Shown: positions 8,195 through 55,282 of the stretch, one piece after another
Layout of the letters: the number at the start of each line of letters is the position of its first letter
How positions within the stretch are numbered: position 1 is the first letter of the stretch
NCBI RefSeq assembly: GCF_006335005.1
Contig: NZ_VDMP01000019.1
Coordinates: 79,080-143,079, forward strand
Origin: Nocardioides albidus
GTDB taxonomy: Bacteria; Actinomycetota; Actinomycetes; Propionibacteriales; Nocardioidaceae
Reading direction: 5' to 3'
DNA length: 64,000 nucleotides
Translations under genes and position numbers: made by a program
The notes under the pieces: model-generated
Seen by the model: only the letters and a program-made list of their open reading frames with translations
Databases searched by the model: none
Told to the model about the DNA's origin: nothing

Positions 8195-8202
8195 CCAGGT
8201 GG

Positions 8203-9069: not shown

Positions 9070-9071
9070 GG

Positions 9072-11784: not shown

Positions 11785-11801
11785 CCGTCCCCGAGACGCA
11801 G

Positions 11802-11847
11802 CGAACGGCCCGTCCCCCTCGGCTGATTCCAGGGGACGGGCCGTTCG
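11802..11847. terminator. Strong hairpin between convergent genes, likely bidirectional terminator
   Basis: A perfect 16-base-pair stem, CGAACGGCCCGTCCCC at 11802-11817 pairing with 11832-11847, around a 14-base loop. It lies between the convergent fadA2 and TetR genes. There is no U-tract, which is usual for high-GC actinobacterial terminators. Confidence 0.8.
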
Positions 11848-11857
11848 TCGTACCAGG

Positions 11858-21791: not shown

Positions 21792-21799
21792 GGGAAGCG

Positions 21800-23017: not shown

Positions 23018-23018
23018 G

Positions 23019-31653: not shown

Positions 31654-31670
31654 GTTGTGTCGCTCACAAC
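31654..31670. promoter_or_regulatory. Palindrome abutting the KstR-like box of the mce4 promoter
   Basis: GTTGTG (31654-31659) and CACAAC (31665-31670), spacer TCGCT, form a perfect inverted repeat that ends exactly where the KstR-like site begins. It may be a second regulator's operator or an activator site at about -35. Confidence 0.4.
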
Positions 31671-31684
31671 GAGAACGTGTTCTA
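31671..31684. promoter_or_regulatory. KstR-like box upstream of the mce4-like operon
   Basis: GAGAACGTGTTCTA matches TNNAACNNGTTNNA except at the first position (G for T). The core AGAACGTGTTCT is a near-perfect palindrome. TAATAT (31683-31688) overlaps its right edge and could be a -10 element, which would let a bound repressor block RNA polymerase. The first gene starts about 60 bases downstream. Confidence 0.7.
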
Positions 31685-31743
31685 ATATCGCGGTGCCCGC
31701 AGTGCGGGCCGACGGGACAGACGGGCGCGAGAGGAGTCGGGGC

Positions 31744-33353: not shown

Positions 33354-33355
33354 CC

Positions 33356-34669
33356 ATGCTGGTCAACATCCACCACGACAGCGCCCGCGAGCACAACCGG
33401 CTCCTCGTCGCCGGCGTCGCCTTCCTGAGCGTGATCGCGCTGCTGGTCTGGCTCTCGATCGCGATCTACGACAAGACCTTCGACAACTCCACGATCGTCA
33501 CGGTGAAGGCCGACCGGGCCGGCCTCCAGCTGGCCAAGTTCGGCGACGTGCGGATGCACGGCGCCCTCGTGGGCCGCGTCGACAGGATCGATCAGGACGG
33601 CGAGCAGGCCGAGATCACCCTCGCGCTCGAGCCGGACGCCGCCAAGCGGATCCCCGCCAACGTGAGCGTCCGGATCCTGCCGACGACCCTCTTCGGCCAG
33701 AAGTTCGTCGCGCTGGTCCGTCCCGAGAGCGCCAGCGGCCACCTGAGCGACGGCGACGTGATCCCCTCGGATCGGGTCGAGACCAACGTCGAGCTCAGCC
33801 AGGTGCTCGCCGACCTCTTCCCGCTGCTGCGCGCCGTGCGGCCCGCGGACCTCAACGCGACCCTGCACGCCCTCGCCACCGCGCTCGAGGGCCGCGGTGA
33901 GCAGCTCGGCGCGACCATGGACCAGCTCGGCGACTACATCGGCGCCATCGACGACCACCTGCCGACCCTGCGCAAGGACCTCGTCGCCCTCGCCGACGTC
34001 GCCGACGCCTACGACGTCGCCGCCCCCGACCTGCTCGACGTCCTCGACAACGTCACCGTCACCAGCAAGACGGTCACCGAGAAGGCCGCCGAGCTCGACG
34101 TCTTCTTCTCCGATCTCACCGGGCTCGCCGACACCGCGACCCGCTTCCTCGCCGACAACGAGCAGAACCTCATCCGGATGGGCGAGGTCACCGCGCCGAT
34201 CCTCGACCTCCTCGCGGAGTACTCCCCGGAGTTCCCCTGCCTGATCCGGGGCGCCGCCAACTACGCGCCGATCCTGTCCAAGACCTTCGAAGGCAACGTG
34301 GTCAAGCAGTACATCGAGTTCTTCCAGCCGCAGTTCCGCCCCTACGACGAGCGCGACACCCCCACCTACGGCGAGGTCGGCCACGGACCGTGGTGTCTCG
34401 GCCTGCCCGACTTCACGGTGCCGGCGCCGGCCCACCCGCTGGACCAGGGCTCCGACATCGACGAGTTGGGCGGCTTCTCGCCACTGCCCCTCCAGGGCCT
34501 GCTGGGCCGGCCGGCCGCCATCGACAGCGGGTACGCCGGCAGCACGGCCGAGCAGAAGGTCGTCAACGCGATGCTCGCCGGTGAGAGCGGGCGCGACCCC
34601 TCGTCGTACGGCTCCCTCGGGTCGCTGCTCTACGGGCCGGTGGTCCGCGAGGGGAGGGCGGCCGGATGA
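33356..34669 (+). CDS. mce4A: MCE family protein Mce4A-like
   Basis: A 437-residue MCE protein, much longer than its counterpart in the first operon. Membrane segment about 16-36, MCE domain about 45-125 (LQLAKFGDVRMHGALVGRV), helical region to about residue 290, then a C-terminal domain of about 150 residues with two Cys (EFPCLIRG and GPWCLG) typical of mycobacterial MceA proteins. It starts two bases after yrbE4B and ends in an ATGA overlap. Confidence 0.92.
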   Translation: MLVNIHHDSAREHNRLLVAGVAFLSVIALLVWLSIAIYDKTFDNSTIVTVKADRAGLQLAKFGDVRMHGALVGRVDRIDQDGEQAEITLALEPDAAKRIPANVSVRILPTTLFGQKFVALVRPESASGHLSDGDVIPSDRVETNVELSQVLADLFPLLRAVRPADLNATLHALATALEGRGEQLGATMDQLGDYIGAIDDHLPTLRKDLVALADVADAYDVAAPDLLDVLDNVTVTSKTVTEKAAELDVFFSDLTGLADTATRFLADNEQNLIRMGEVTAPILDLLAEYSPEFPCLIRGAANYAPILSKTFEGNVVKQYIEFFQPQFRPYDERDTPTYGEVGHGPWCLGLPDFTVPAPAHPLDQGSDIDELGGFSPLPLQGLLGRPAAIDSGYAGSTAEQKVVNAMLAGESGRDPSSYGSLGSLLYGPVVREGRAAG

Positions 34670-35757
34670 GCCCCGGGGGCAACCAGCGCAACGCCGTGAC
34701 CAGGGCGGCCGCGATCAAGCTCGGCGTGTTCACGATCGTGTCGGTGTTCGTGACCGGCCTGCTGGCCGTGATCATGGGCAATGTCGGCTTCGGCGACCGC
34801 CACGAGTACCACGCGATCTTCACCAACGCCACGATGCTGGAGAAGGGCGACGACGTCCGGGTCGCCGGCGTCAACGTCGGCGAGGTCAAGAAGGTCGAGC
34901 ACCACAAGCGCTCGATGGCCGAGGTGACCTTCAAGGTCGACGCCGGCGTCAGGCTGACCACGGCGTCGAGGGCCAACATCCGCTTCCTCAACCTCGTCGG
35001 CGACCGCTACATGAGTCTGCAGCAGGGCACCGGCGCCGCCGATGCCGCGCCGCTCGCCGACGGAGCCACCATCCCGGTGCGCAACACCGAGCCGGCGCTC
35101 GACCTGACCGTGCTCTTCGACGGGTTCAAGCCGCTGTTCGCCGCGCTCACGCCCGACCAGGTCAACGAGCTCAGCCTGAACCTGGTCCAGGTGCTCCAGG
35201 GGGAGGGCGGCACCGTCAAGAGCCTGTTGGACCACACCGCGTCGCTGACCTCGGCTCTCGCCGACCGCGACCAGCTCATCGGCGACGTGATCACCAACCT
35301 CACCCAGACGCTGAACACCGTCGACGAGCGCCACCAGCAGCTCAGCTCGCTCATCGTCGAGCTCAAGGACTGGATGAGCGATCTCGCCAAGGACCGCGAC
35401 ACGATCGGCTCCTCGCTCGACAACATCTCCGAGCTGACCGTGGCCGTCGCCGACCTCCTGCGCCGCGGCCGTCCGCTGCTCAAGGAGGACATCGCCGCGT
35501 TGCGCTCGCTGTCCAAGCTGCTCAACAAGAAGGAGAACCGGGACAACCTGGCCAGCCTCCTCGACCGGATGCCGGAGATGATGACCGACCAGACCCGGAC
35601 CGGGACCTACGGGTCCTGGTACCAGTACTACGTCTGCGGCTTCTCCGGCCGGATCCGGCTCCCGGTCATCAAGGACCTGCCGATCCTCAAGGAGATCCAG
35701 GACTACCTGACCAATTTCTCCTTCAAGTCCAAGGCGCCGAGGTGTCAGGACCGATGA
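34666..35757 (+). CDS. mce4B: MCE family protein Mce4B-like
   Basis: A 363-residue MCE protein with N-terminal membrane segment (about 15-38), MCE domain (LEKGDDVRVAGVNVGEV) and helical region. The end carries YYVCGFSGRIRLP and a final RCQDR, the B-type Cys pair. ATGA overlaps join it to both neighbours, consistent with stoichiometric synthesis of the six subunits. Confidence 0.92.
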   Translation: MSPGGNQRNAVTRAAAIKLGVFTIVSVFVTGLLAVIMGNVGFGDRHEYHAIFTNATMLEKGDDVRVAGVNVGEVKKVEHHKRSMAEVTFKVDAGVRLTTASRANIRFLNLVGDRYMSLQQGTGAADAAPLADGATIPVRNTEPALDLTVLFDGFKPLFAALTPDQVNELSLNLVQVLQGEGGTVKSLLDHTASLTSALADRDQLIGDVITNLTQTLNTVDERHQQLSSLIVELKDWMSDLAKDRDTIGSSLDNISELTVAVADLLRRGRPLLKEDIAALRSLSKLLNKKENRDNLASLLDRMPEMMTDQTRTGTYGSWYQYYVCGFSGRIRLPVIKDLPILKEIQDYLTNFSFKSKAPRCQDR

Positions 35758-36755
35758 GACAGCCCGTCAACAAGCATCAGCGCGCCCGGGACGCGCGCGT
35801 CCTGCGCCTGGGCGTCATCACCCTCGTGGTCATGGCCGTGGTGTCCGCCGCGACCTTCAACCTCGGCAAGTTCCCCGGCTTCCGGGGCACGACCTACTAC
35901 GCCGAGTTCAGCGACGCCAGCGGCATCCACAAGGGCAACATCGTCCAGGTCGGCGGCATCCGCGTCGGCCGGGTCAGCGCCGTCACGCTCGACCGCGACC
36001 GGGTCAAGGTGAAGTTCGAGATCGACGGCGACGTCGAGTTCGGCAGGACCAGCAGCGCCTCCATCGAGGTGCTCAACCTGCTGGGCGAGAAGTTCCTCGA
36101 CGTCCAGCCCGGCGGGAACGGCCAGCTCGCCGAGGGCGGCACGATCCCGATGGAGCGCACCCAGGCGGCCTACGACATCGTCGGTGTCTTCGGCGACCTG
36201 ACCACCACGACGGAGGAGATCGACACCGACCAGCTGGCCCAGGCGCTGGAGACCGTGGCCGACACCCTGGACCAGTCGGCGCCCGAGATCCAGGCGTCCT
36301 TCGACGGCATCTCCCGGCTGTCGCAGACCATCGCCTCGCGCGACGCCGAGATCAAGTCGCTCTTCGACTCCTCCCAGCAGGTCACCAAGGTCCTCGCCGA
36401 CCGCAGCGACGACATCGTGGAGCTGATGAAGAACAGCGACCTGGTGTTCCAGGAGCTGACCAAGCGCAAGGACGCGGTGCACGCGCTGCTCGTCAACGCC
36501 CGCACCCTCGCCCGCGAGCTGCGCGGCGTGGTGAAGGACAACGAGAAGCAGATCGGTCCCGCTCTGAAGGAGGTCGACGGGCTGGTGTCCTTCCTGGTCT
36601 CGAAGAAGGACAAGCTCAAGGCGACCCTCGCCGCCCTCGGGCCCTATGTGTCCATCCTCAGCAACATCATCGGGACCGGCCCGTGGTTCGACGCCTACGC
36701 CGCCAACATGCTCGCCATCCCCACCGGCGAGTTCGTCCCGGGAACGGGGCTCTGA
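35754..36755 (+). CDS. mce4C: MCE family protein Mce4C-like
   Basis: A 333-residue MCE protein: membrane segment about 18-36, MCE domain (ASGIHKGNIVQVGGIRVGRV), helical region with ELTKRKDAVHALL and a short hydrophobic C-terminus (IIGTGPWFDAYAANML). Unlike the C protein of the first operon it has no C-terminal Cys pair. Start overlaps the preceding stop by ATGA. Confidence 0.92.
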   Translation: MRQPVNKHQRARDARVLRLGVITLVVMAVVSAATFNLGKFPGFRGTTYYAEFSDASGIHKGNIVQVGGIRVGRVSAVTLDRDRVKVKFEIDGDVEFGRTSSASIEVLNLLGEKFLDVQPGGNGQLAEGGTIPMERTQAAYDIVGVFGDLTTTTEEIDTDQLAQALETVADTLDQSAPEIQASFDGISRLSQTIASRDAEIKSLFDSSQQVTKVLADRSDDIVELMKNSDLVFQELTKRKDAVHALLVNARTLARELRGVVKDNEKQIGPALKEVDGLVSFLVSKKDKLKATLAALGPYVSILSNIIGTGPWFDAYAANMLAIPTGEFVPGTGL

Positions 36756-36760
36756 GCGCC

Positions 36761-37990
36761 ATGGTGTCCACCGTCCTCAAGCGCATCGACCGGCGCGTCA
36801 TCGCCGTCGTCGCGGTCGCGCTGCTGCTGGCCGTGACGATCAACCTGGTCCGCTCACCCGCCGAGACGAAGACCGTCACCGCCCACTTCCCCCGCGCCGT
36901 CAGTGTCTACGAGGGAACCGACGTCCGGATCCTCGGCGTCAACGTCGGCAACGTGACCGCCGTGATCCCCGAGGGCAACTCGGTGCGGGTCGAGATGGAG
37001 TACGACGCGTCGTACAAGATCCCGGCGAAGGCCCAGGCGGTCATCGTCACTCCCACGCTCGTCGCTGACCGCTTCGTCCAGCTGACCCCCGTCTTCCAGG
37101 GCGGCGACGTGATGGCCGACGGCGCGGACATCGCCCTGCCCGAGACGGCGGTGCCCGTCGAGCTCGACCGCATCTACGGCAGCCTCCAGGCGCTGACCCG
37201 GGCGCTGGGGCCCAACGGCGTCAATGCCGACGGCACCCTCGACCACCTGCTCCAGGCCGGAACCAAGGCGTTCGGGGGCCAGGGTGCCCAGGGCAACCAG
37301 ATGATCCAGGACCTCGCCGACGCCGCGCAGACCTTCGGCGACGGGGCCGGACCGCTCTTCGAGACGGTCACCCAGCTCGCGAAGTTCACCACCACGCTCG
37401 CCCAGAACGACACGCTCGTCCGAGCCTTCATGCAGGACCTCACCGGTGTCTCCTCGATGCTCGCCGAGGAGAGTGACGAGCTGCAGAAGGCCGTGGCGGC
37501 CGTCGCGAAGGCGGTCGGCAGTGTCAAGGGCTTCGTGAAGGACAACCGGGACGCCTTCGTCGCCGACATCCGCAAGCTCACCGAGGTGATGACGACCATC
37601 GCCTCCGAGCGCGACAACATCAAGACCGCCATCGAGGTGGCGCCGGTCGCGATGGGCAATCTCGCCATGGGCTTCGACCACGTCAGCGACAGCCAGAACT
37701 CCCGCTTCGCGATCGGCGGCAACGTCTGGGACGTCGACGGACTGATCTGCTCGTTCATCCAGCAGCACCCCTCGATGCCGCCGGCGCTCAAGGACACCGC
37801 GTGCGAGCTCGTCGAGAAGCTGATCGAGCCGATCGCGACGAAGCTGCCGTGGCTGCCGCCCGAGTACAAGTCCTCCCTGCCGAAGCAGACGGCCTCGAAG
37901 AACGACGTCATCGTGCCCCGGGTCTCCGAGGTGTCCTACTCGACCGGCGACGACACCTCCGTCCAGACCCTGCTGGGAGGTGCGTCGTGA
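36761..37990 (+). CDS. mce4D: MCE family protein Mce4D-like
   Basis: A 409-residue MCE protein with a membrane segment at about residues 12-28, MCE domain (VSVYEGTDVRILGVNVGNV) and a helical region. A C-terminal section of about 100 residues contains two Cys (LICSF and TACELVE) and a Pro-rich stretch. ATG 36761 follows the previous stop by five bases. Its N-terminus is a membrane helix with no lipobox, in contrast to the D protein of the first operon. Confidence 0.92.
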   Translation: MVSTVLKRIDRRVIAVVAVALLLAVTINLVRSPAETKTVTAHFPRAVSVYEGTDVRILGVNVGNVTAVIPEGNSVRVEMEYDASYKIPAKAQAVIVTPTLVADRFVQLTPVFQGGDVMADGADIALPETAVPVELDRIYGSLQALTRALGPNGVNADGTLDHLLQAGTKAFGGQGAQGNQMIQDLADAAQTFGDGAGPLFETVTQLAKFTTTLAQNDTLVRAFMQDLTGVSSMLAEESDELQKAVAAVAKAVGSVKGFVKDNRDAFVADIRKLTEVMTTIASERDNIKTAIEVAPVAMGNLAMGFDHVSDSQNSRFAIGGNVWDVDGLICSFIQQHPSMPPALKDTACELVEKLIEPIATKLPWLPPEYKSSLPKQTASKNDVIVPRVSEVSYSTGDDTSVQTLLGGAS

Positions 37991-39348
37991 GCCGAGGCCT
38001 CCGCCACCTCTCCGGCCGCTGGCGCGCTCTGGTCGCGCTGCTGCTCGGAACCGCCCTGCTCACCGGCTGCAGCAGCTTCGACGGCGCCTACGACCTGCCC
38101 CTGCCCGGACATCCGGTCGACGCGGACGAGGCCTACGAGGTCACGGCGTACTTCCGCGACGTCCTCAACGTCGTGCCGCGCTCGCCCGTGATGGTCGACG
38201 ACGTCGTCGTGGGGGAGGTCGTCGACGTCGAGCGCGCCGGCTGGAACGCCAAGGTCACCCTGCGGCTGCGCGACGAGGTCGAGCTGCCCGACAACTCGAT
38301 CGCCGACATCCGGCAGGTCTCCCTGCTCGGCGAGAAGTACGTCTCGCTCCAGGCCCCCGAGCGGGAGGCGCCCACCGGACGCCTGGGCCAGGGCGACGAG
38401 ATCGAGCTCGCCAGCACCGGCCGCAATCCCGAGGTGGAGGAGGTCCTCGGCGCGCTCTCGTTCCTGCTCAGCGGGGGCGGCGTCGCCCAGCTGGGGACCA
38501 TCACCCGGGAGGCGAACCTCGTCATGTCCGGGCGCGAGGACCGGCTGCGCGGCCTGCTGTCCTCGCTGGACTCGGTGGTGGGGACCATCGACCAGCAGAA
38601 GCTCGACATCATCCAGGCCCTCGAGTCCCTCAACAACCTCACCTCGACGCTCAACGCCGAGAAGAAGACGATCGGCGACGCGCTCGACGCCGTCGGCCCG
38701 GCCGTCGAGGTCCTGTCGGCCCAGCACGACGAGCTGATCGCGATGCTCGGCTCGCTCGACAGGCTCGGCAAGGTCGGCACCCGGGTGATCAACGCCAGCA
38801 AGGAGGACGTCCTCAAGATCCTCGAGGACCTCAGCCCGATCCTGCGTCGCCTGACCGAGGCCGACGAGCAGTTGGCCCCCGGCCTCAACCTGCTGGTGAG
38901 CTTCCCGTTCCCGCAGGCGGCCGCCAACATCATCCAGGGCGACTACGCCGACACGATCATCCGGGCCGACCTCAACATCGAGAACCTCTACAAGACCCTC
39001 GGCCTGCCCGAGATCGACCTGCCCGACCTGGGCCAGGTGCTGGATTCGGTGACCAAGTGCCTCAAGAGCGGCAGCCTCACCAGCGTGTCCTGCCTGAAGG
39101 TGCTCAGCGACGTCAACCTGCTCCAGGACCTGCAGACCAAGTGCAAGGACCCCAAGATCAGCACGAGCCCGGTCTGCAAGCTGCTCACGTCCCTGCCCGA
39201 CCTCGACCTCGGCGGACTGCTCGGCGGCGCCAACGGGCTGCTCGGCCCGGGCGGCGCGCTCGGGGGGCTGCTCAACGGCCTCACCGGGGCGAGTCCGTCG
39301 TCGTACCGAACCTCCACCGAGGGCCTCCTGGGCGGTGGTGTCGCATGA
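37987..39348 (+). CDS. mce4E: MCE family lipoprotein Mce4E-like
   Basis: A 453-residue MCE lipoprotein with lipobox LLTGC at about residue 28. The MCE domain has the E-type sequence VVPRSPVMVDDVVVGEV. A helical section follows, then a Cys-containing region (TKCLK, VSCLK, TKCKD, PVCKLL) and a Gly/Leu-rich tail. GTG 37987 overlaps the previous stop. Its stop codon is the left border of the 71-base inserted element described at 39345-39419. Confidence 0.92.
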   Translation: MSRGLRHLSGRWRALVALLLGTALLTGCSSFDGAYDLPLPGHPVDADEAYEVTAYFRDVLNVVPRSPVMVDDVVVGEVVDVERAGWNAKVTLRLRDEVELPDNSIADIRQVSLLGEKYVSLQAPEREAPTGRLGQGDEIELASTGRNPEVEEVLGALSFLLSGGGVAQLGTITREANLVMSGREDRLRGLLSSLDSVVGTIDQQKLDIIQALESLNNLTSTLNAEKKTIGDALDAVGPAVEVLSAQHDELIAMLGSLDRLGKVGTRVINASKEDVLKILEDLSPILRRLTEADEQLAPGLNLLVSFPFPQAAANIIQGDYADTIIRADLNIENLYKTLGLPEIDLPDLGQVLDSVTKCLKSGSLTSVSCLKVLSDVNLLQDLQTKCKDPKISTSPVCKLLTSLPDLDLGGLLGGANGLLGPGGALGGLLNGLTGASPSSYRTSTEGLLGGGVA

Positions 39349-39419
39349 ATCACCGCACGAGGTTCTTCGCTTCCCCCGCTTCGCTCCTCCGACTGACAAC
39401 CTCGCGGGGACCCCGATGA
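39345..39419 (+). repeat. Palindromic inserted element at the mce4E/mce4F junction
   Basis: The region between two ATGA tetranucleotides (39345-39348 and 39416-39419) holds an inverted repeat, CGAGGTT at 39358-39364 and AACCTCG at 39398-39404, with a pyrimidine-rich centre. Elsewhere in this operon one ATGA serves as both stop and start; here the two functions are separated by 71 bases. A 24-codon open frame starts in the first ATGA and stops in the second, so ribosomes could bridge the gap. It looks like a small mobile repeat inserted at the junction. Confidence 0.5.
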
Positions 39420-40687
39420 CCCGGGGCGTGCGGATCCGACTGATGGCCTTCGTCGTGCTCAGCGCCGTCGGCATCACCTACATCGCGGCGAGCTATCTCG
39501 GCATCGTCGACCGGGTCACCGGCCGGGGGATCACCGTCACCGCCAGCCTGCCCGGCTCCGGCGGCCTCTACGAGGGCAGCGAGGTGACCTATCGCGGGGT
39601 GAAGATCGGCCGGGTCTCGCGGATGGAGACGACCGAGGAGGGCGTCGACCTGACCCTCGACCTCGAGGAGGACACCCGCCTCCCGATCGAGTCGCGGCTG
39701 TTCGTGCACAACCTCTCGGCCGTGGGCGAGCAGTACCTCGACTTCCAGCCGGACGACGAGTCGGGCCCGTACGCCGAGGACGGCTCGAGGTTCACCGGTG
39801 ACGAGAAGTCCCTGCCGGTCGACGAGGGCGACCTCCTCGTCGACCTCAACCGCTTCGTGGGCTCGGTCGACAAGGACAGCCTCGCGAAGGTGGTCGAGGA
39901 GCTCGGCACGATGTTCACCGACACCGGCGACGACCTCCAGAGGCTGCTCGACGGCGGCTCGGCCTTCATCGCCGAGGCCAGCGCCCACACCGACGAGACG
40001 ATCCAGCTGCTCGACAGCGGCCTCGCGGTGCTCAAGACCCAGCAGGGCCAGAAGGAGAACATCCGGCGCTTCGCCGCGGACCTCGACACCCTCACCTCCG
40101 CGCTGCGGGCCAGCGACGGCGACCTGCGCACCGTGTTGAGCGCCACCCCCGGCGCCGCGAGGGCACTCACCCGCCTCCTCAAGGAGCTCGAGCCCACGAT
40201 CCCGGTGCTCCTCGGCGACCTGGTGACCGTCGGCCAGGTGCTCGTCACCGAGCTCGACGGCCTCGAGCAGCTCCTCGTCACCTACCCGGTGCTGATCTCC
40301 GGCGGACCGACCGGCAGCACGGCCGACGGCTGGGGCCACGTCAACCTGCAGTTCGACTACAGCATCCCGCCCTGCACGCAGGGCTACGTGCCCCCCTCGC
40401 AGTGGCGCTCGACGCAGGACCTGACCGACAAGAAGCCGGCCCAGGTCAGCTGCACGGCGGGGCCGCCGTACAACATGCGGGGCAGCAGGTACGCGCCGTC
40501 GAACCGCAAGAACCGCGCCTCGCCCGGTCGCGTCTACAGTGGCACCTACGACCCGTCCACCGGCCAGGTGCCCGGACTGGTCGATTCCGAGGGGAACCCG
40601 GTCGAGCTGCGGCAGCCGGAGGACCTTTCCGTCCTGGGAGGGGATGCGTGGAAGTGGCTGTTGGTCGGCCCGGTGGCGAGCAAGTGA
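39416..40687 (+). CDS. mce4F: MCE family protein Mce4F-like
   Basis: A 423-residue MCE protein with membrane segment about 6-26 and F-type MCE domain (GGLYEGSEVTYRGVKIGRV). After the helical region there is a C-terminal domain of about 120 residues with two Cys (PPCTQG, VSCTAG) and basic, low-hydrophobicity segments. I chose ATG 39416 because upstream sequence in this frame is the inserted palindromic element. The stop overlaps the GTG of the next gene. Confidence 0.92.
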   Translation: MTRGVRIRLMAFVVLSAVGITYIAASYLGIVDRVTGRGITVTASLPGSGGLYEGSEVTYRGVKIGRVSRMETTEEGVDLTLDLEEDTRLPIESRLFVHNLSAVGEQYLDFQPDDESGPYAEDGSRFTGDEKSLPVDEGDLLVDLNRFVGSVDKDSLAKVVEELGTMFTDTGDDLQRLLDGGSAFIAEASAHTDETIQLLDSGLAVLKTQQGQKENIRRFAADLDTLTSALRASDGDLRTVLSATPGAARALTRLLKELEPTIPVLLGDLVTVGQVLVTELDGLEQLLVTYPVLISGGPTGSTADGWGHVNLQFDYSIPPCTQGYVPPSQWRSTQDLTDKKPAQVSCTAGPPYNMRGSRYAPSNRKNRASPGRVYSGTYDPSTGQVPGLVDSEGNPVELRQPEDLSVLGGDAWKWLLVGPVASK

Positions 40688-45665: not shown

Positions 45666-46277
45666 CTAGTCACGCAGAATGAGGTGCACGGCCTTCTCCA
45701 TGTGGGCCGCCGTCTCCTCGGCGGTGGAGCGGCCGGTCACCCACGCCACCAGGGCGGAGAGCCACACGTCGCCGATGACGCGCGCGATGGCGACGTCGTC
45801 CTCGGTGATCGCGCCCTCGTCGGGCGTGCCCCCGTGCATCGCGTGGGTCACGATCGTGGTCATCGCCATCCCCACCACGTGGATCTCGTTGCTCACGCTG
45901 CTGTCGGCGAACATGAAGGCGCGGGTGAGCGCCTCGGTGAGCTTGGGGTCGCCCTGCATGCCGCGGGCCATCCGCTTGAGGACGTAGAGCACGCGCTCGG
46001 CCTGCGTGTCGCCGGGGATCTCGCGCTCGTTCAGGCGCGCCGAGGCGTCCTCGAACTGGCGGCCCAGCGCGGAGACGAGCAGGTGGATCTTCGAGGGGAA
46101 GTAGCGGTAGAGCGTGCCGAGGGCCACGTCGGCACGCTCGGCGACCGCACGCATCTGGACGGCGTCGAACCCGCCGGACGTGGCCAGGTCGTAGGTCGCG
46201 TCGAGGATCCTCTTGCGACGCTCGCGCTGGGCGGCCGATCCGAGGTCCTCGGACGTGGACGGGTTCGCGATGCTCAC
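45666..46277 (-). CDS. kstR: TetR-family repressor of sterol catabolism KstR
   Basis: A 203-residue TetR protein whose DNA-binding half agrees closely with mycobacterial KstR as I remember it: GSAAQRERRKRILDAT, GGFDAVQMRAVAERADVALG, TLYRYFPSKIHLLVSALGR. The C-terminal half keeps LTEALTRAFMFAD and IARVIGDVWLSALVAW. KstR represses early sterol uptake and side-chain genes and is released by 3-oxo-cholestenoyl-CoA-type thioesters. A perfect KstR palindrome 81 bases upstream implies autoregulation. The divergent glycosyltransferase shares that site. Confidence 0.92.
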   Translation of the reverse strand: MSIANPSTSEDLGSAAQRERRKRILDATYDLATSGGFDAVQMRAVAERADVALGTLYRYFPSKIHLLVSALGRQFEDASARLNEREIPGDTQAERVLYVLKRMARGMQGDPKLTEALTRAFMFADSSVSNEIHVVGMAMTTIVTHAMHGGTPDEGAITEDDVAIARVIGDVWLSALVAWVTGRSTAEETAAHMEKAVHLILRD

Positions 46278-46357: not shown

Positions 46358-46371
46358 TGGAACACGTTCCA
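46358..46371. promoter_or_regulatory. KstR box between kstR and the glycosyltransferase cassette
   Basis: TGGAACACGTTCCA, a perfect KstR-type site (TNNAACNNGTTNNA) with palindromic arms. CATAAT (46351-46356) just to its left could be the -10 for the glycosyltransferase gene, 56 bases before its start. The site lies between two divergent genes, so it can act on kstR, the cassette, or both. Confidence 0.8.
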
Positions 46372-46427
46372 CTACGTTCTCGTTTCGGCCTTGCTCCCCG
46401 GGAGCTCGACAAGGGGAGAAGCACCTG

Positions 46428-47765
46428 ATGCGAATCGCGATGCTGTCCTACCGCAGCAAGCCGCACGTCGGCGGGCAGGGGATCTACATCCGGCGGCTCA
46501 CGCGCGAGCTCGCCGCACTCGGCCACACCGTCGAGGTGTTCTCCGGGCAGCCCTACCCGGACCTCGACGAGGGAGTGACCCTCACGAAGGTGCCGAGTCT
46601 CGACCTCTACCGGCCCGGCGACGAGTTCCGCAACCCGAGCCCGGGGGAGTTCCGCGACCTCGTGGACGTCGAGGAGTGGCTGACCATGCGCAGCGGCGCC
46701 TTCCCCGAGCCCGTCACCTTCAGCAAGCGCGTGGTGAGGCTGCTGCGCGAGCGCCGTGACGACTTCGACGTCGTCTTCGACAACCAGACCCTGGCGACGC
46801 CGCTGCTCGCGATCGAGGATCCCGCGACGGTCGGTCTCCCGCTCGCGACGACGATCCACCACCCGATCACGATGGACCGCCGCATCGAGCTCGCCTCCGC
46901 TGCCTGGGCCAAGCTCAAGGACGGGTCCCGGTGGCGCCTCGAGCTGCCCAAGATCGGCGTGTGGCGCTGGTACTCCTTCCTGAGCCAGCAGAAGCGCACC
47001 GCTCCCCGCCTGCGCCGCGTCATCGTGCCGTCAGAGTCGTCCAAGCGCGACGTCGTCCGCGAGTTCAAGGTCGACCCGGCGCGGATCGAGACGATCCTGC
47101 TCGGTGTCGACGACCGGTTCACCCCGCCCGCCGCGCCCCGCGTGCCCGGGCGGATCCTCGCGATGGCCAGCGCCGACGCGCCCCTCAAGGGCATCTCCGT
47201 CCTCCTCGAGGCCTTCGCCAAGCTGGTCGTCGAGCGCGACCTCGAGCTGGTGCTCGTCACCAAGCCCAAGGAGGGCGGGGTGACCGAGAAGCTGATCGAC
47301 AAGCTCGGCATCGCCGAGCGCGTGTCCTTCGCCAACGGTCTCACCGACGACGAGCTGGTCGCCCTCATGGGCTCGGCCGAGCTGGCCTGCGTGCCCTCGC
47401 TCTACGAGGGCTTCTCGCTCCCGACCGCGGAGCTGATGGCGTGCGAGACCCCGCTCGTCGTCTCGCGGGCCGGAGCCATCCCGGAGGTCGTCGGTCCCGA
47501 CGGCCTGTGCGCCGACGTCGTGGAGCCCGGTGACGTCGGTGCGCTCACCACGGCGCTGGCCGCCCTGCTCGACGACCCCGCCCGCCGTGCCGAGATGGGT
47601 GCTGCGGGCCGGCGCCGGGTCAAGGAGCTGTTCAGCTGGACCGCGGTCGCGGCGAGCACCGCGGCCGTGCTGGAGGACGTGATCGCGGAGTACCGGGCCG
47701 AGAACGCCGAGCAGAAGGTTTCGAGGCTCGCTGGCGCTCGCACCTCAACCACCGAGAAGGACTGA
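46428..47765 (+). CDS. GT4-family glycosyltransferase
   Basis: A 445-residue GT-B retaining glycosyltransferase. N-terminal acceptor domain begins MRIAMLSYRSKPHVGGQGIY with the glycine loop; the donor domain has the E-x7-E motif, E327 and E335 in EGFSLPTAE. Sugar donor and acceptor are unknown. From memory, M. tuberculosis has a similar glycosyltransferase next to a methyltransferase (Rv0225, Rv0224c). The last 15 or so residues (VSRLAGARTSTTEKD) are encoded by a palindromic repeat and are probably not part of the ancestral enzyme. First gene of a KstR-box-linked cassette; four bases separate it from the methyltransferase. Confidence 0.88.
   Translation: MRIAMLSYRSKPHVGGQGIYIRRLTRELAALGHTVEVFSGQPYPDLDEGVTLTKVPSLDLYRPGDEFRNPSPGEFRDLVDVEEWLTMRSGAFPEPVTFSKRVVRLLRERRDDFDVVFDNQTLATPLLAIEDPATVGLPLATTIHHPITMDRRIELASAAWAKLKDGSRWRLELPKIGVWRWYSFLSQQKRTAPRLRRVIVPSESSKRDVVREFKVDPARIETILLGVDDRFTPPAAPRVPGRILAMASADAPLKGISVLLEAFAKLVVERDLELVLVTKPKEGGVTEKLIDKLGIAERVSFANGLTDDELVALMGSAELACVPSLYEGFSLPTAELMACETPLVVSRAGAIPEVVGPDGLCADVVEPGDVGALTTALAALLDDPARRAEMGAAGRRRVKELFSWTAVAASTAAVLEDVIAEYRAENAEQKVSRLAGARTSTTEKD
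47717..47753 (+). repeat. REP-like palindromic repeat inside the glycosyltransferase 3' end
   Basis: GGTTTCGAGGCTCGC reads into GCTCGCACCTCAACC as an imperfect palindrome, ending 12 bases before the stop codon. It has the look of short dispersed repeats common in Nocardioides-like genomes. It supplies the protein's C-terminal residues from about 430 on. Confidence 0.55.
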
Positions 47766-47769
47766 CGAC

Positions 47770-48519
47770 ATGCTGACCGTTGACTTCGACCGCCTCGGCC
47801 TGCGCGCCGGCGACCGCGTCCTCGACATGGGCGCCGGAGCCGGCCGGCACAGCTTCGAGATGTACCGCCGCGGCGCCGACGTGATCGCCTTCGACCTCGA
47901 CGCCGAGGAGCTCGAGAACGTCCGCAACCTGTTCGTGGCGATGAAGGAGGCCGGCGAGGTGCCCGAGGGCGCCGAGGCCGACGTCAAGCAGGGCGACGCC
48001 CTCGCGCTGCCCTTCGCCGACGGCGAGTTCGACCGGATCGTCTGCTCGGAGGTCCTCGAGCACATCCACGACGACGTCGCCGCGATCCGCGAGCTGATCC
48101 GCGTGCTGCGGCCGGGCGGGACCCTCGCCGTCACCGTGCCCCGCTGGCTGCCCGAGGTGATCAACTGGCGCCTCTCCGCCGACTACCACAACGCGGAGGG
48201 CGGTCACATCCGGATCTACACCGACCACGAGCTCGTCGACAAGGTCACCAAGGGTGGCCGCCTCAACGACGGCACCCCCGGCGAGGCCATGGTGTTCGAG
48301 GGCAAGAGCTACACCCACGGCCTGCACGCGCCGTACTGGTGGATCAAGTGCGCGGTCGGCGTCGACAACGACACCCACCCGCTCGCCAAGGCGTACCACA
48401 AGCTGCTGGTCTGGGAGATCATGAAGCAGCCCACGGCGCTCCGGCTCGCCGGCAAGGTGCTCGACCCGGTGATCGGCAAGAGCATGGTGCTGTACTTCCG
48501 GAAGCCGGAGGCGGCGTGA
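47770..48519 (+). CDS. Class I SAM-dependent methyltransferase
   Basis: A 249-residue methyltransferase. Motif I is RVLDMGAGAGRHSFE; the following acidic residue is in IAFDLDAEEL; ALPFADGEFDRIVCSEVLEH and VLRPGGTLAVTVPRWLPE are motifs II and III of Methyltransf_11 types. After the Rossmann fold there is an aromatic-rich part (HAPYWWIKCAVG) that may bind a lipid. It lies between the glycosyltransferase and the toroid-fold gene, with GTGA overlap to the latter, so the three probably act on one product. Confidence 0.87.
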   Translation: MLTVDFDRLGLRAGDRVLDMGAGAGRHSFEMYRRGADVIAFDLDAEELENVRNLFVAMKEAGEVPEGAEADVKQGDALALPFADGEFDRIVCSEVLEHIHDDVAAIRELIRVLRPGGTLAVTVPRWLPEVINWRLSADYHNAEGGHIRIYTDHELVDKVTKGGRLNDGTPGEAMVFEGKSYTHGLHAPYWWIKCAVGVDNDTHPLAKAYHKLLVWEIMKQPTALRLAGKVLDPVIGKSMVLYFRKPEAA

Positions 48520-49670
48520 GCGGGGCCGCCACGCCCGAGGTGCCGCTGAGCCGCCTGCCGTACGTCGACGGCGTGCTGTCCGCGCAGGAGGTGGCCGACA
48601 CCGCGGCGGCCATCGCCGCCATGCAGGAGCCGTGCGGGGCGGTGCCGTGGACCACGGGCGAGCACGTCGACATCTGGAACCACGTCGAGGCCGCCATGGC
48701 GATGCTGGTCGGCGGGCAGGTCGACGCGGCGGAGCGCGCCTATGCCTGGATCCCCACCCTGCAGCGCGCCGACGGCTCCTGGCCGATGAAGATCGTCGGC
48801 GGGGCGGCCGAGGACGAGCGGGGCGAGGTCAACATGTCGGCGTACTTCGCCGTCGGCCTGTGGCACCACTGGCTGGTGCGTCGCGACATCCGCTTCGTCG
48901 AGCGCTACTGGCCCTCCGTGCGCGCCGGGCTCGACTTCGTCGTGTCCCTGCAGGAGCCCTTCGGCGGCATCCGCTGGACGCCGGTCGACGACTTCTGCCT
49001 GCTCACGGGCAACTCCAGCATCTACCACTCCCTGCGTGCCGGCGTGGCGCTTGCCGACCTGATGGACGACCCCCAGCCCGAGTGGGAGCTCGCCGGCGGC
49101 CGCCTCGGACACGCGGTGCGCAGCCACGCCGACCGGTTCGCGGACAAGTCGACCTACTCGATGGACTGGTACTACCCGGTCCTCGGAGGGCCGGTCCGCG
49201 GCGACGCGGCCCGCGACCTGATCGCGCGCCGGTGGGACGACTTCGTCGTCCCGGGCCTCGGGATCCACTGCGTCGACACCAATCCCTGGGTCACCGGCGC
49301 GGAGACCTGCGAGCTCGCCATGGCGCTCGACGTCCTCGGCGACCCGGCTTCGAGCAGGCGGGCGCGGACACTGCTGGCCGACGTCCAGCACCTGCGCGAG
49401 GAGGACGGCCGGTACTGGACCGGATGGGTCTACGCCGACCCGACGCGTCCTGCGCCGGAAGGCGAGCCGCGTGACGTGCACTGGCCGCACGAGCACACGA
49501 CCTACACGGCCGCGGCGGTGATCCTGGCGGTCGACGCGCTCGGGGAGACCTACGGCCACGCCACGCCCGGCTCCGGGATCATGCGCGGGACCTCGCTGGC
49601 GCCGCACTTCGCCGAGATCGCCCTCGAGTGCGAATGCCCCTCAGTCGAGCGGGTCTCCGGCCGCGCCTGA
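48516..49670 (+). CDS. Terpenoid-cyclase/prenyltransferase-toroid-like protein
   Basis: A 384-residue helical protein that appears to have an alpha/alpha-barrel fold. LQRADGSWP near residue 90 resembles the QW motif of squalene-hopene cyclases and protein prenyltransferases, and repeating W/G/H-rich helices continue to HWPHEHTTYTAAAVILAV at the end. There is no DxDD or QxDDxxD catalytic motif, so cyclase activity is unsupported; a six-hairpin glycosidase-like role is equally open. Such proteins are often labelled prenyltransferase in databases. GTG 48516 overlaps the methyltransferase stop. The last 30 bases overlap the convergent methyltransferase gene. Confidence 0.7.
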   Translation: MSGAATPEVPLSRLPYVDGVLSAQEVADTAAAIAAMQEPCGAVPWTTGEHVDIWNHVEAAMAMLVGGQVDAAERAYAWIPTLQRADGSWPMKIVGGAAEDERGEVNMSAYFAVGLWHHWLVRRDIRFVERYWPSVRAGLDFVVSLQEPFGGIRWTPVDDFCLLTGNSSIYHSLRAGVALADLMDDPQPEWELAGGRLGHAVRSHADRFADKSTYSMDWYYPVLGGPVRGDAARDLIARRWDDFVVPGLGIHCVDTNPWVTGAETCELAMALDVLGDPASSRRARTLLADVQHLREEDGRYWTGWVYADPTRPAPEGEPRDVHWPHEHTTYTAAAVILAVDALGETYGHATPGSGIMRGTSLAPHFAEIALECECPSVERVSGRA

Positions 49671-50318
49671 GTCGCGCCGCAGCACGCGGAGCGAGCCCTG
49701 GTGGGCCACCTCCGTGAACGCGCCGCTCGCCAGTGCCGGCAGGTAGATCTGCTCGTACGGCGGCCGCCCGCCGTCGGCAGGGTCGGGGAAGACGTCGTGG
49801 ATGGCGAGGAAGCCGCCCGACCCGACCCAGTGCGCCCAGCCGCGGTAGTCGTCGCGGGCCGGCTCCTCGCCGTGCCCGCCGTCGATGAACAGCAGCGAGA
49901 GCGGCGTGCGCCAATGGGCGGCGACGGTCGTGGAGCGGCCCACGACGGCGATGACGTGGTCCTCGAGGCCGGCCCGCGCGATGTTCTTGCGGAACTGGCC
50001 CAGGGTGTCCATCAGTCCGAACTCCGGGTCGACGACGCTGGCGTCGTGGTGCTCCCAGCCGGCCTGGTTCTCCTCGGAGCCGCGGTGGTGGTCGACGGTG
50101 AACACGACCGCTGTCGTGCCCGTGTCGCGGGTGACCTGCTGCGCGGCGGCGCCGAGGTAGATCCCGGACTTGCCGCAGTAGGTGCCGACCTCGAGCACCG
50201 GCCCGTGGGGCAGTCGCTCGAGCGCGACCCGGTGGAGCAGGGCGCCCTCGTCCTCGGGCATGAAGCCCTTCGCGCGGCGGGCGTGGTCCAGGAGGTCGGA
50301 CGGCATGGTGTCGGTCAC
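49641..50318 (-). CDS. Class I SAM-dependent methyltransferase (Methyltransf_24-like)
   Basis: A 225-residue O- or N-methyltransferase-like protein: VLEVGTYCGKSGIYLG (motif I), LLFIDGGHGEEPARDDY and LAIHDVFP, the arrangement of Methyltransf_24, often found with glycan or natural-product genes. It converges on the toroid gene with a 30-base overlap and starts 20 bases from the KstR box at 50338-50351, so it can be under KstR control. It is a plausible fourth member of the cassette. Confidence 0.85.
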   Translation of the reverse strand: MTDTMPSDLLDHARRAKGFMPEDEGALLHRVALERLPHGPVLEVGTYCGKSGIYLGAAAQQVTRDTGTTAVVFTVDHHRGSEENQAGWEHHDASVVDPEFGLMDTLGQFRKNIARAGLEDHVIAVVGRSTTVAAHWRTPLSLLFIDGGHGEEPARDDYRGWAHWVGSGGFLAIHDVFPDPADGGRPPYEQIYLPALASGAFTEVAHQGSLRVLRRDSGAAGDPLD

Positions 50319-50337
50319 TCCCGCACTCTAGTAGAGT

Positions 50338-50351
50338 TAGAACGCGTTCTA
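50338..50351. promoter_or_regulatory. Perfect palindromic KstR box between methyltransferase and acyl-CoA dehydrogenase genes
   Basis: TAGAACGCGTTCTA is a perfect 14-base palindrome matching the KstR consensus fully. It lies 20 bases before the methyltransferase start on one side and 16 bases before the dehydrogenase start on the other, covering both promoter regions. Confidence 0.85.
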
Positions 50352-50367: not shown

Positions 50368-52374
50368 ATGTCGATCGGCATCACCGACGAGCAGGTCGAG
50401 CTCGCCGACAGCCTGCGCAAGTGGGCGTCGAGCCTGTCCCCGATCGAGGCGGTCCGCGCCGCGGAGGGCGACGTGGCGGCGGACTTCGCACCGATCTGGG
50501 CTGCGATCGAGGAGATGGGGGTCCACGCGATCGCCGTACCCGAGGGCGACGGTGGTGGCGGCGGGACCGTGCTCGACCAAGCGGTCGCGCTGGAGGCCTG
50601 CGCCCACGAGCTGCTGCCGGGCGGACTGCTCGGCGCCGCGATCGGCAGCACACTGAGCCGGGAGCCCGGACGGCACGGCGTCCAGCTCGACGACGACGGC
50701 GTGATCTGGGACGGCGGTACGGCGGGCCGCGGCACCCCTGCGCCCGGCATCGACCTCTCGGCGCGCCACGCCCGCGGCACCGGTCCGGGACTCGCCGACC
50801 CCGCCGCGCGGCGCACCGCGATCACCTTCGCGGCCGCCGAGGCGGCGGGCGTGACCCGCTGGTGCCTGGAGACGGCGGTCGACTACGCAGGAGTCCGCGA
50901 GCAGTTCGGGCAGAGGATCGGCTCCTTCCAGGCGATCAAGCACCTGTGTGCCCAGATGCTCGAGACCGCCGAGGCCGTCACCGCGGCGGCCTGGGACGCG
51001 GCCGCGGCGGCGACGGCACGGGATTCGGGGCGGGCCGGCGAGGAGCAGTGGGCCTTCGCGGTCGACGTCGCCCTCGTCACCTGCTTCGACGGCGCCGTCG
51101 AGGTCGCCAAGTCCTGCATCCAGGTGCTCGGCGGCATCGGCTTCACCTACGAGCACGACGCCCACCTCTACCTGCGTCGCGCTCTGACCCTGCGTGCTCT
51201 CGTCGGCTCCGCCGACGATGCTGCCGAGCGGGTGACCGCCGCCGCCGTCGCCGGCGTACGACGCCGGGTCGACGTCGACCTCGAGGGCCGCGACGCGGCG
51301 GTCCGTCCGCAGGCTCGCGCCACCGCCGAGCGGATCGCGGCGCTGCCGGCGGGGGAGCAGCGGAGCGCACTCGTCGACGCGGGCTACCTGACGCCGCACT
51401 GGCCGCCGCCCTACGGCCTCGGCGCCGATCCCGCCACGCAGATCGTCATCGATCAGGAGCTCGGCCGCGCGGGCGTCGTACGACCGGACCTGGTGATCGC
51501 CGGGTGGGCCCTCCCGACGATCCTCGCCCACGGCACCGACGCGCAGCGCGAGCGGTTCGTGCGGCCCTCGCTGCTCGGCGAGCTCACCTGGTGCCAGCTG
51601 TTCTCCGAGCCCGGCTCCGGCTCCGACCTCGCCTCCCTGCGCACCCGCGCGGTGAGGGTCGAGGGCGGTTGGTCGCTGACGGGGCAGAAGGTGTGGACGT
51701 CGGTCGCCGAGCGGGCCGACTGGGGCATCTGCCTGGCGCGGACCGATCCCGACGTCCCGCAGCACAAGGGCATCACCTACTTCCTCGTCGACATGCGCGC
51801 CGCCGGCATCGAGGTGCGCCCGCTGCGCGAGATCACCGGCGAGGCGCTGTTCAACGAGGTCTTCCTCGACGACGTCCTCGTCCCGGACGAGTGCGTCGTC
51901 GCGGAGCCCGGCGACGGCTGGAGACTGGCGCGCACGACGCTGGCCAACGAGCGCGTCGCGATGGCCGGCACCCGGCTGACCAAGAGCGTCGAGCGCGCCG
52001 TCGAGCTCGCCGCCTCCCGCGACCTCGGCCCCGTCGAGCGCGTCGAGATCGGCCGCCAGGTGGCGCTCGCCACCGTGTGTGCCCTGCTCGGCGTCCGCAC
52101 CACCCTGCGCGCGCTCGGTGGCCACGGCCCCGGCGCGGAGTCGAGCGTCGCCAAGCTGCTCGGCGTCCGCAGCCGCCAGGACTCCTCCGAGCTCGTGGTC
52201 CGGCTCCAGGGCGACGCCCTCGCCCTGCTCGGTCCGCTCGGCAAGGAGTCCGACGACCCCCTCGCCGCCGACGTGTGGGAGCAGCTCAACACCCGCTGCC
52301 TGTCCATCGCCGGCGGCACCACGCAGATCCTGCGCAACGTCGCCGCCGAGCGGATCCTCGGCCTGCCTCGCTAG
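50368..52374 (+). CDS. fadE34: Tandem-domain acyl-CoA dehydrogenase, FadE34/ChsE3-like
   Basis: A 668-residue protein made of two acyl-CoA dehydrogenase units. The second unit (from about residue 325) is complete, with CQLFSEPGSGSDLASLRTRA and WSLTGQKVWTSVAERADWG around the flavin. The first keeps its C-terminal helical domain (YAGVREQFGQRIGSFQAIKH, QVLGGIGFTYEHDAHLYLRR) but the middle beta-domain is reduced to about 50 residues. The mycobacterial FadE34 (ChsE3, about 711 residues) dehydrogenates sterol side-chain acyl-CoA and is also next to kstR. TTGAGGAG precedes ATG 50368; a TTG at 50356 is less likely. Confidence 0.85.
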   Translation: MSIGITDEQVELADSLRKWASSLSPIEAVRAAEGDVAADFAPIWAAIEEMGVHAIAVPEGDGGGGGTVLDQAVALEACAHELLPGGLLGAAIGSTLSREPGRHGVQLDDDGVIWDGGTAGRGTPAPGIDLSARHARGTGPGLADPAARRTAITFAAAEAAGVTRWCLETAVDYAGVREQFGQRIGSFQAIKHLCAQMLETAEAVTAAAWDAAAAATARDSGRAGEEQWAFAVDVALVTCFDGAVEVAKSCIQVLGGIGFTYEHDAHLYLRRALTLRALVGSADDAAERVTAAAVAGVRRRVDVDLEGRDAAVRPQARATAERIAALPAGEQRSALVDAGYLTPHWPPPYGLGADPATQIVIDQELGRAGVVRPDLVIAGWALPTILAHGTDAQRERFVRPSLLGELTWCQLFSEPGSGSDLASLRTRAVRVEGGWSLTGQKVWTSVAERADWGICLARTDPDVPQHKGITYFLVDMRAAGIEVRPLREITGEALFNEVFLDDVLVPDECVVAEPGDGWRLARTTLANERVAMAGTRLTKSVERAVELAASRDLGPVERVEIGRQVALATVCALLGVRTTLRALGGHGPGAESSVAKLLGVRSRQDSSELVVRLQGDALALLGPLGKESDDPLAADVWEQLNTRCLSIAGGTTQILRNVAAERILGLPR

Positions 52375-53857: not shown

Positions 53858-55282
53858 ATGGATCGGCTGTCCGGGCTCGATGCGAGCTTTCTCTATCTGG
53901 AGACGCCCGCGCAACTGATGCACGTCTGCGCCGTCATGGTGCTCGACCCCGCGACCATGACGACGCCGTACGCCTTCGCCGCGATGCAGGACGAGATCGC
54001 GGCCCGCGTGCGCGACGTGCCGGGCTTCACCCGCAAGGTCCGTGGTGTCCCGCTCGGCCTCGACCACCCGGTGTGGGTGCGCGACAGGAGCTTCGACATC
54101 GAGCGGCACGTGCACCGCCTCGCGCTGCCCACGCCGGGCGGCTATGCCGAGCTGATGGACCTGTGCGCTCACCTGGCCTCCCTTCCGCTCGACCGCTCCC
54201 GCCCGCTGTGGGAGATGTGGGTGATCGAGGGCTACCGGCCCGAGGAGGGGGCGGGGGAGAAGGTCGTCGTGTTCGCGAAGATGCACCATGCGACCGTCGA
54301 CGGCGTCTCCGGCGCGAACCTGATCTCCCACCTGTGCTCGCTGGAGCCGGACGCGCCGCCCCTCGTGCCGGAGAACGTCCCCCACCCCCGCGACCCCGGT
54401 CGCGGCGAACTGCTCGGCCGCGCCGTCATCGGCACGGCCACCCGGCCCGTCACCCTGGTCAAGGTGCTCAAGCCCTCGGCCGAGCTGATCACCAAGAGCA
54501 TCGGCCGCGCCCGGCAGGGGACCGCCATGGCCGCGCCGTTCTCCGCCCCGCGCACGTCGTTCAACGGCACCATCACGTCCCACCGCTCCATCGCCATGGC
54601 CGACCTCGATCTCGAGGAGATCCGCCGGGTCAAGAAGGTGACCGGTACGACGGTCAACGACGTCGTGCTCGCGATCTGCGGTGGCGCGCTGCGCGCCTAC
54701 CTCGCCGAGCGCGACGAGCTGCCGGAGTCCTCGCTGCTGGCCACGGTGCCTGTCAGCGTGCGCGACAGCTCGCGCCGCTCGACCGGCGCCAACAAGGTGT
54801 CCGCGCTGTTCACCAAGCTCGGCACCGACATCGACGACCCGCTGGAGCGCCTGCGGATGCTCGCCGAGCGCAACCGGCACGCCAAGGAGCACCACAACGC
54901 GATCAGCGCCGACGCCCTCCAGGACTGGGCGGAGTTCGCCGCGCCCCGCACCTTCGGCCTCGCCGTGCGCGCCTACGCGAACCTGCGCCTCGCCGAGCGG
55001 CACCCGGTGGTGCACAACCTGGTCATCTCGAACGTGCCCGGCCCGCCGATCCCGCTCTACTTCATGGGTGCCCGGATCGACGCGCTCTGCCCCCTCGGGC
55101 CGGTCTTCCACGGCGCCGGACTCAACATCACCGTGATGTCGAACGCCGGGCAGATGCACGTCGGCGCGATCGCCTGCCGCGAGTCCATGCCCGACACCGA
55201 CGCGCTGGTGCGCCACTTCCCGGCCGAGCTCGATCGCCTCAGCGCGGCGGTGGACGCCGGAAGTCCCGACGGCGCGCGTTGA
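53858..55282 (+). CDS. WS/DGAT wax ester synthase / diacylglycerol acyltransferase
   Basis: A 474-residue bifunctional-type acyltransferase that esterifies diacylglycerol or fatty alcohol with acyl-CoA. The active site HHxxxDG is HHATVDG at residues 143-149. The second half has the family's NDVVLAICGGALR and NLVISNVPGP segments. It allows storage of excess acyl groups as triacylglycerol or wax. It is divergent from the LipC-like esterase, and its 3' end overlaps the convergent hydrolase by 44 bases. Confidence 0.93.
   Translation: MDRLSGLDASFLYLETPAQLMHVCAVMVLDPATMTTPYAFAAMQDEIAARVRDVPGFTRKVRGVPLGLDHPVWVRDRSFDIERHVHRLALPTPGGYAELMDLCAHLASLPLDRSRPLWEMWVIEGYRPEEGAGEKVVVFAKMHHATVDGVSGANLISHLCSLEPDAPPLVPENVPHPRDPGRGELLGRAVIGTATRPVTLVKVLKPSAELITKSIGRARQGTAMAAPFSAPRTSFNGTITSHRSIAMADLDLEEIRRVKKVTGTTVNDVVLAICGGALRAYLAERDELPESSLLATVPVSVRDSSRRSTGANKVSALFTKLGTDIDDPLERLRMLAERNRHAKEHHNAISADALQDWAEFAAPRTFGLAVRAYANLRLAERHPVVHNLVISNVPGPPIPLYFMGARIDALCPLGPVFHGAGLNITVMSNAGQMHVGAIACRESMPDTDALVRHFPAELDRLSAAVDAGSPDGAR

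Follow-up and report, generated by a model that had tools for sequence, protein, structure and literature searches.

The cassette of four genes analysed here lies in a stretch of 64,000 nucleotides from Nocardioides albidus (contig NZ_VDMP01000019.1, positions 79,080 to 143,079; this whole stretch is called the window, and positions are given in its numbering), where it is flanked by a kstR-type repressor gene on the left and by a fadE34-like gene on the right. From comparison with characterised enzymes it reads as a cluster for the biosynthesis and recycling of methylmannose polysaccharide (MMP), a rare methylated sugar chain, and its manT-meT3-mmpH operon is probably controlled by KstR through the operator at 46358-46371. 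The genes and sites of the locus are as follows.

45666-46277, minus strand: kstR-type TetR repressor gene (NF033703, 266.9 bits; TetR_N and TetR_C_20 domains)
46358-46371, no strand: left box, predicted KstR operator between kstR and manT (exact match to TNNAACNNGTTNNA, read as TGGAACACGTTCCA)
46428-47765, plus strand: manT, predicted alpha-(1->4)-mannosyltransferase of family GT4 (7QSG, 456 bits; five key residues kept)
47770-48519, plus strand: meT3, putative 3-O-methyltransferase in the pMeT3 position (class I methyltransferase domain; placement between manT and mmpH)
48516-49670, plus strand: mmpH, predicted MMP endomannosidase, an (alpha/alpha)6 barrel of 384 residues (7QSJ, 383 bits; model Z 52.6)
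49641-50318, minus strand: meT1, predicted reducing-end 1-O-methyltransferase (6G7D, 249 bits, sole PDB match)
50338-50351, no strand: right box, predicted KstR operator of fadE34 (exact match to TNNAACNNGTTNNA, read as TAGAACGCGTTCTA)
50368-52374, plus strand: fadE34-like acyl-CoA dehydrogenase gene, outside the MMP set (open reading frame with acyl-CoA dehydrogenase domains)

Four bases separate manT from meT3, a GTGA overlap joins meT3 to mmpH, and meT1 converges on mmpH with an overlap of 30 bases. Re-checking of the open reading frames returned exactly the gene coordinates, gap and overlaps of an earlier note on this DNA, which had taken the cassette for an undescribed system making or modifying a glycolipid, isoprenoid or sterol glycoside. 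Against solved structures, however, the glycosyltransferase matched 7QSG at 456 bits with a runner-up at 83 bits, the 384-residue protein matched 7QSJ (383 bits) and nothing else, and the convergent methyltransferase found 6G7D, which we take to be MeT1, as its only PDB match (249 bits, over residues 1-224 of 225). No solved orthologue of the meT3 product was found among the PDB structures, and its assignment follows from the class I methyltransferase domain and the pMeT3 position. 7QSG and 7QSJ are ManT and MmpH of Mycolicibacterium hassiacum in the account of PMC9883506, the consulted parts of which describe the four-gene set as a recycling system: primers released from old MMP by MmpH are lengthened by ManT and receive their cap from MeT1. 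The ManT residues Gly15, His142, Lys240, Glu313 and Glu321 were conserved in 161 of 161 rows, the window's own included. The cassette would therefore be a known gene set, and it cannot count as an undescribed system, since its enzymes have been described already (PMC9883506, in the parts consulted). A methylated glycan stands as the probable product on the strength of the MMP enzyme matches, and the glycolipid, isoprenoid and sterol glycoside are not supported as products. That the N. albidus cluster produces MMP, and that its enzymes have these activities, we infer from their characterised homologues.

The 384-residue protein had seemed undescribed because it matched no Pfam family and, in NCBIfam, gave just two weak amylase-type matches. 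Its QW-like motif had led to its being read as a toroid-type protein, and if it were a terpenoid-cyclase toroid the product of the cassette would be an isoprenoid carrying methyl or sugar groups. Foldseek does list drimenyl diphosphate synthase and squalene-hopene cyclase for it as distant matches, at E of about 1e-8 to 1e-6. A structure model built from 31 Nocardioidaceae sequences (mean predicted local distance difference test score, pLDDT, 90.3) nevertheless matched 7QSJ with Z 52.6 and a root-mean-square deviation of 1.3 over 342 residues, sequence identity to the MMP hydrolase being 52-54%, and the next structural matches were glycosidases at Z about 25-33. Neither Pfam nor NCBIfam gave a match to a squalene-hopene or other terpene cyclase profile at E 0.001. 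QRADGSW, the QW-like stretch, is genuine, but it is no pointer to a cyclase because 7QSJ carries QRPDGSW at the equivalent place. The cyclase toroid was thus rejected both by sequence, through the 7QSJ homology, and by fold, and we consider it practically impossible; structure prediction points instead to an endomannosidase barrel. An identity as a GH15 glucoamylase was also rejected, its NCBIfam matches being weak (best 2.8e-6).

The palindrome TNNAACNNGTTNNA is given as the KstR motif in the consulted part of PMC1995591. Four exact sites occur in the window, at 42176, 46358, 50338 and 56171, and the N. albidus genome holds 41 against two for a reversed-pattern control, so that KstR sites exceed chance. 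Perfect boxes at both outer ends of the cassette, at 46358 and 50338, were confirmed as exact, the left one 57 bases before manT and the right one 19 bases upstream of meT1. Both had been counted as the cassette's own, and this held for the left box, which tracks KstR and manT, and failed for the right, which tracks fadE34. All 52 loci with an adjacent fadE34 have the right box in front of meT1, against one of 25 scorable others, L051, whose fadE34 is cut by the contig end. The most plausible role of this box is that of fadE34 operator, and a role as meT1 operator was rejected.

For the left box, sites were scored on a scale of our own with a maximum of 10.4 and a cut of 9.4, fixed after the first scoring of loci, in a sample of 80 Nocardioidaceae loci that was later extended with more genomes of the family. 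kstR is divergent from manT in 57 of the 80, and a box of at least 9.4 stood before manT in 54 of these, the other three having a near match (8.7). Such an arrangement would also arise if the MMP genes merely sat between kstR and fadE34, without any sterol response, and the left box served autoregulation of kstR; with kstR and manT divergent, one box could serve kstR alone, and the right box does track fadE34. The loci in which the two genes are apart, however, argue against it. manT was present in 21 further loci, with a box in seven, none in 13 and no upstream sequence in one (manT was absent from the last two of the 80). In whole genomes, covering 15 of these 20 loci with readable upstream sequence, KstR was encoded elsewhere in five of five in which the box was retained, and was not found in ten of ten without the box; this genome-wide search was drawn up for 19 loci, from which L090 and L098 dropped out and in which L074, L091, L093 and L096 were not included, and L068 and L100, which it contained, are kstR-adjacent. 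N. albus and N. luteus are species in which kstR is not adjacent. In the extended family table, 18 of the 19 rows that have KstR and 0 of the 23 that lack it show the manT box; once a duplicate was removed, L100 and L246 being one genome, the figures were 17 of 18 and 0 of 23. Rows without KstR scored at most 8.4 and rows with KstR, except G232, at least 9.4, so that the table is unchanged wherever the cut is placed between these values (Fisher p 5e-11, kinship ignored). On a tree of concatenated ManT-MeT3-MmpH proteins, ten changes of the KstR label are required, of which at least nine are forced by well-supported branches, and the pairing of box and repressor is therefore not one inherited accident. 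This comparative evidence points to an action of KstR at the manT promoter in Nocardioidaceae, and we hold mere neighbourhood to be quite unlikely.

Within the genus of the window a KstR match was found in 11 of 16 genomes, nine of the 11 also encoding KshA (PF19298), while all five KstR-less genomes are without KshA and mmpH is present in 16 of 16. The two genomes with KstR and no KshA are G264 and G164, and in G164 a divergent KstR (203 bits) adjoins manT, with a box score of 9.4. By these counts kstR largely goes with sterol catabolism and the operator goes with kstR; MMP does not go with sterol catabolism.

Several observations weigh against KstR control of the MMP genes. The window's KstR, at 266.9 bits, falls just below the curated 280-bit cut-off of NF033703, as do most Nocardioides KstR proteins; KR76_12270 of Nocardioides simplex has been named KstR in print. 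G232 has KstR and the MMP genes yet no manT box. Beyond the family (f1, with genera g1 to g4, of which g1 is the window's own), where the group labels f5, f16 and f18 have no taxonomic meaning, 0 of 6 loci of f5 had a box within 250 bp of manT although five of the six genomes have KstR above the cut-off, which would be expected if the MMP genes were mere neighbours. MSMEG_6481-6484 go unmentioned in the main text of the paper on the M. smegmatis regulon. In six f16 loci (L118, L119, L120, L145, L148 and L149) a TetR gene, its product 31-36% identical, is divergent from manT, and again no box was found within 250 bp of manT, although L118 has one about 340 bp upstream; L115-L117 of the same group have a box before manT. 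Because f5 and these six f16 loci are without a manT box in that interval, the KstR wiring of the MMP genes appears to be a matter of lineage. The regulatory half of the earlier note is thus favoured within Nocardioidaceae, where the operator before manT is lost together with KstR, and not across the class.

Among 296 sampled genomes of the class, mmpH homologues were found in 149, and KstR (NF033703, E up to 1e-40) in 92, above the 280-bit cut-off in 26; in this sample the cassette showed no tie to true KstR across the class. Wide occurrence of the set without KstR is one of the outcomes that the earlier note had named as refuting its proposal. Searched across actinobacterial genomes, the four genes form a recurrent module with its order kept: manT-meT3-mmpH-meT1 in 76 of 76 complete Nocardioidaceae loci, and, among 40 loci taken from other groups and genera, manT-meT3-mmpH on one strand in 39. 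In those 39, meT1 lies downstream and convergent in 26 (within 1.5 kb in 13), downstream on the same strand in six and upstream in one, and falls outside the stretch read in six. Gene neighbours in the other groups yielded no additional constant partner. The fortieth locus, L150 (G049:C8:299000-316000), has mmpH alone, a second homologue at 8146-9087 with no manT, meT3 or meT1 in the 17 kb read and with a FadE34-like acyl-CoA dehydrogenase some 3 kb away.

Older work linked the role of MMP to fatty acid synthase I (FAS-I). The Pfam marker FAS_I_H proved too insensitive (2 of 296) and was replaced by a 1054-residue fragment of one match, with which FAS-I was matched in 37 of the 296 genomes, 29 of them with both FAS-I and mmpH. 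No FAS-I match was obtained in 120 of the 149 genomes with mmpH, nor in any of the 16 of the window's own genus. Within family f1, FAS-I was matched in 8 of 8 genomes of g2, one of two of g3 and the single genome of g4, and so appears to have been gained or lost inside one family. The presence of mmpH in 149 of 296 genomes suggests an old actinobacterial module that is not tied to sterols, and, because 120 of 149 are without a FAS-I match, not to FAS-I either; a FAS-I-tied role of MMP cannot be general.

A second pairing of regulator and operator was found in group f18, which is called Streptomyces-like here as f5 is called mycobacterial-like, both being labels inferred in part from KstR, FAS-I and family matches. 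In this group (genomes of 5.8-11 Mb) 27 of 30 genomes with mmpH have one KstR-like TetR gene (188-204 bits), which lies 2.9-3.8 kb from mmpH in 26 and, in the 27th, beside manT on a contig fragment (L209). The exact operator stands before manT in 20 of 20 loci read with the regulator, and of the three read without it L189 has the operator and L192 and L195 have none. The recognition-helix region of these proteins is nearly identical to that of KstR, but the TetR tree sets them apart as a separate, long-branched clade at a point where long branches meet, and they are therefore called KstR-like. KshA was found at E 1e-20 in two of the 30 genomes and was strong only in G125. In L182 an aldehyde dehydrogenase gene near the MMP cluster (10694-12262, minus strand) starts at a KstR-type box at 12263, a hint of a small regulon under KstR-like control that contains no sterol genes. 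L189 (G143), which keeps the manT operator, has at about 4300-6350 (minus strand), where its kin have the KstR-like TetR gene, repeated QQCADGGF/QQNKDGGWG motifs that we take to resemble prenyltransferase-type repeats. Second KstR-like TetR copies (about 159-205 bits) were also seen in f5 (L201-L208), on a long branch inside the f5 KstR clade, and the stretches read contain none of the window's MMP genes.

Conservation of the MmpH active site was followed in an alignment of 172 rows, 165 of them distinct, with residues numbered as in M. hassiacum MmpH. Trp49, Met215, Tyr219, Glu262 and Glu265 do not vary, and at position 47 three rows have Glu and all others Asp; in the window Asp47 corresponds to Asp52, Glu262 to Glu263 and Asp50 to Asn55. 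According to the consulted parts of PMC9883506, Glu262 is the base, the mutants leave Asp47 versus Asp50 undecided as the catalytic acid, and the Asp50 Ala variant has most of its activity gone. The window protein has Asn for Asp50, which counts against its assignment as an MMP hydrolase, and Tyr for Trp315. Position 50 is Asp in every f5, f17 and f18 row and in three rows of g2, a genus of the same family as g1 and g3, and Asn in 100 of 100 rows from g1, g3 and the 80 Nocardioidaceae loci, in 5 of 14 f16 rows and in 4 of 14 other rows; position 315 shifts from Trp to Tyr or Phe along with it, save for five discordant rows. Because position 50 is often Asn while 47 stays Asp or Glu, the alignment favours Asp47 rather than Asp50 as the catalytic acid. 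Together with further changes at positions 102 and 163, the altered pocket leaves room for a somewhat different substrate, and the cluster could make a related polymer, its Asn50/Tyr315 MmpH acting on an otherwise methylated or linked glycan, as the acetylated form noted for Streptomyces griseus (PMC9883506, consulted in part) might suggest. We consider this unlikely, since Asp47 (Glu in three rows), Trp49, Met215, Tyr219, Glu262 and Glu265 of MmpH and all five ManT residues are kept as described above.

For MMP itself, the preferred product, a course of events can be proposed. ManT would add alpha-(1->4) mannose from GDP-mannose onto oligomannosides, MeT3 would be the likely 3-O-methyltransferase, and MmpH would cleave finished MMP to primers, with MeT1 capping the reducing end. 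KstR would repress the manT-meT3-mmpH operon through the predicted operator at 46358-46371. As sterol-derived CoA thioesters accumulate, KstR would be released, fadE34 and the manT operon freed and MMP would rise, while the fadE34 operator at 50338-50351 may have no more than an incidental effect on meT1. Release of KstR by sterol-derived acids or CoA thioesters is described in the consulted part of PMC7807495, and MMP has been proposed to sequester (fatty) acyl-CoA, its mutant growing more slowly only at 15 C (PMC9883506, consulted in part). Here MMP would most likely serve, during catabolism, to bind bulky acyl- or steroyl-CoA, so that steroyl-CoA would be buffered. A wider reading, which we put forward tentatively, is that MMP is a catabolic tool, a cytosolic chain for holding bulky or long acyl-CoAs (for Nocardioides, the same sterol-derived CoA thioesters by which KstR would be released), made on demand through acyl-CoA-sensing repressors of the KstR type, the FAS-I role then being a side case; the f18 pairing suggests that KstR-like control of MMP may predate, or be independent of, sterol catabolism. 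The operator pattern names a possible switch for MMP in one lineage, a sterol-CoA sensor.

The neighbourhood of the locus contains two mce-type transporter gene sets, at 17679-24661 and 31657-40684, the latter with MlaE permease and Mce4_CUP1 domains and a half KstR-type site, AGAACGTGTTCT, at 31672. A wax ester synthase/diacylglycerol acyltransferase gene at 53858-55279, within the KstR neighbourhood, may provide a sink for the fatty acids that sterol esters yield.

A search limited to open-access literature returned no paper joining methylmannose with KstR or with Nocardioides, and within that literature neither the KstR placement of the cluster, the repeated co-loss of operator and repressor, the f18 pairing nor the changed MmpH pocket was found in print. 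According to RNA-seq work on N. simplex (PMC7807495, PMC7593942), phytosterol induces 12 genes of cluster B (KR76_12190-12345) more than threefold in strain VKM Ac-2033D. The main-text passages of the KstR papers do not name the four genes between kstR and fadE34 of that species; from the numbering and from locus L031 (Pimelobacter simplex) these would be the MMP genes. As N. simplex is used for steroid conversion, the MMP genes may matter there.

What is new is thus the KstR wiring of a known MMP set, a lead on what MMP is for, and the cluster can be placed between two described systems. With the KstR regulon (PMC1995591; for N. simplex PMC7807495 and PMC7593942, all consulted in part) it shares the operator, the adjacent fadE34 and the cluster itself, the N. 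simplex kstR (KR76_12270) and fadE34 (KR76_12295) leaving space for four locus tags between them. With the MMP cluster of M. hassiacum (MHAS_04402-04405; PMC9883506, in the parts consulted) it shares the order manT, pmeT3, mmpH, meT1, and ManT, MmpH and MeT1 are homologous across nearly their full length. Unlike that cluster, it is flanked by kstR and fadE34, has a KstR operator before manT and is changed at MmpH positions 50, 102 and 315; its genus, unlike the nontuberculous mycobacterial setting of MMP, gave no FAS-I match. MmpH itself resembles GH15 and related (alpha/alpha)6 glycosidases in fold (Z about 25-33) but is just 11-16% identical to them, and it is described as an endomannosidase that forms a group by itself (PMC9883506, consulted in part).

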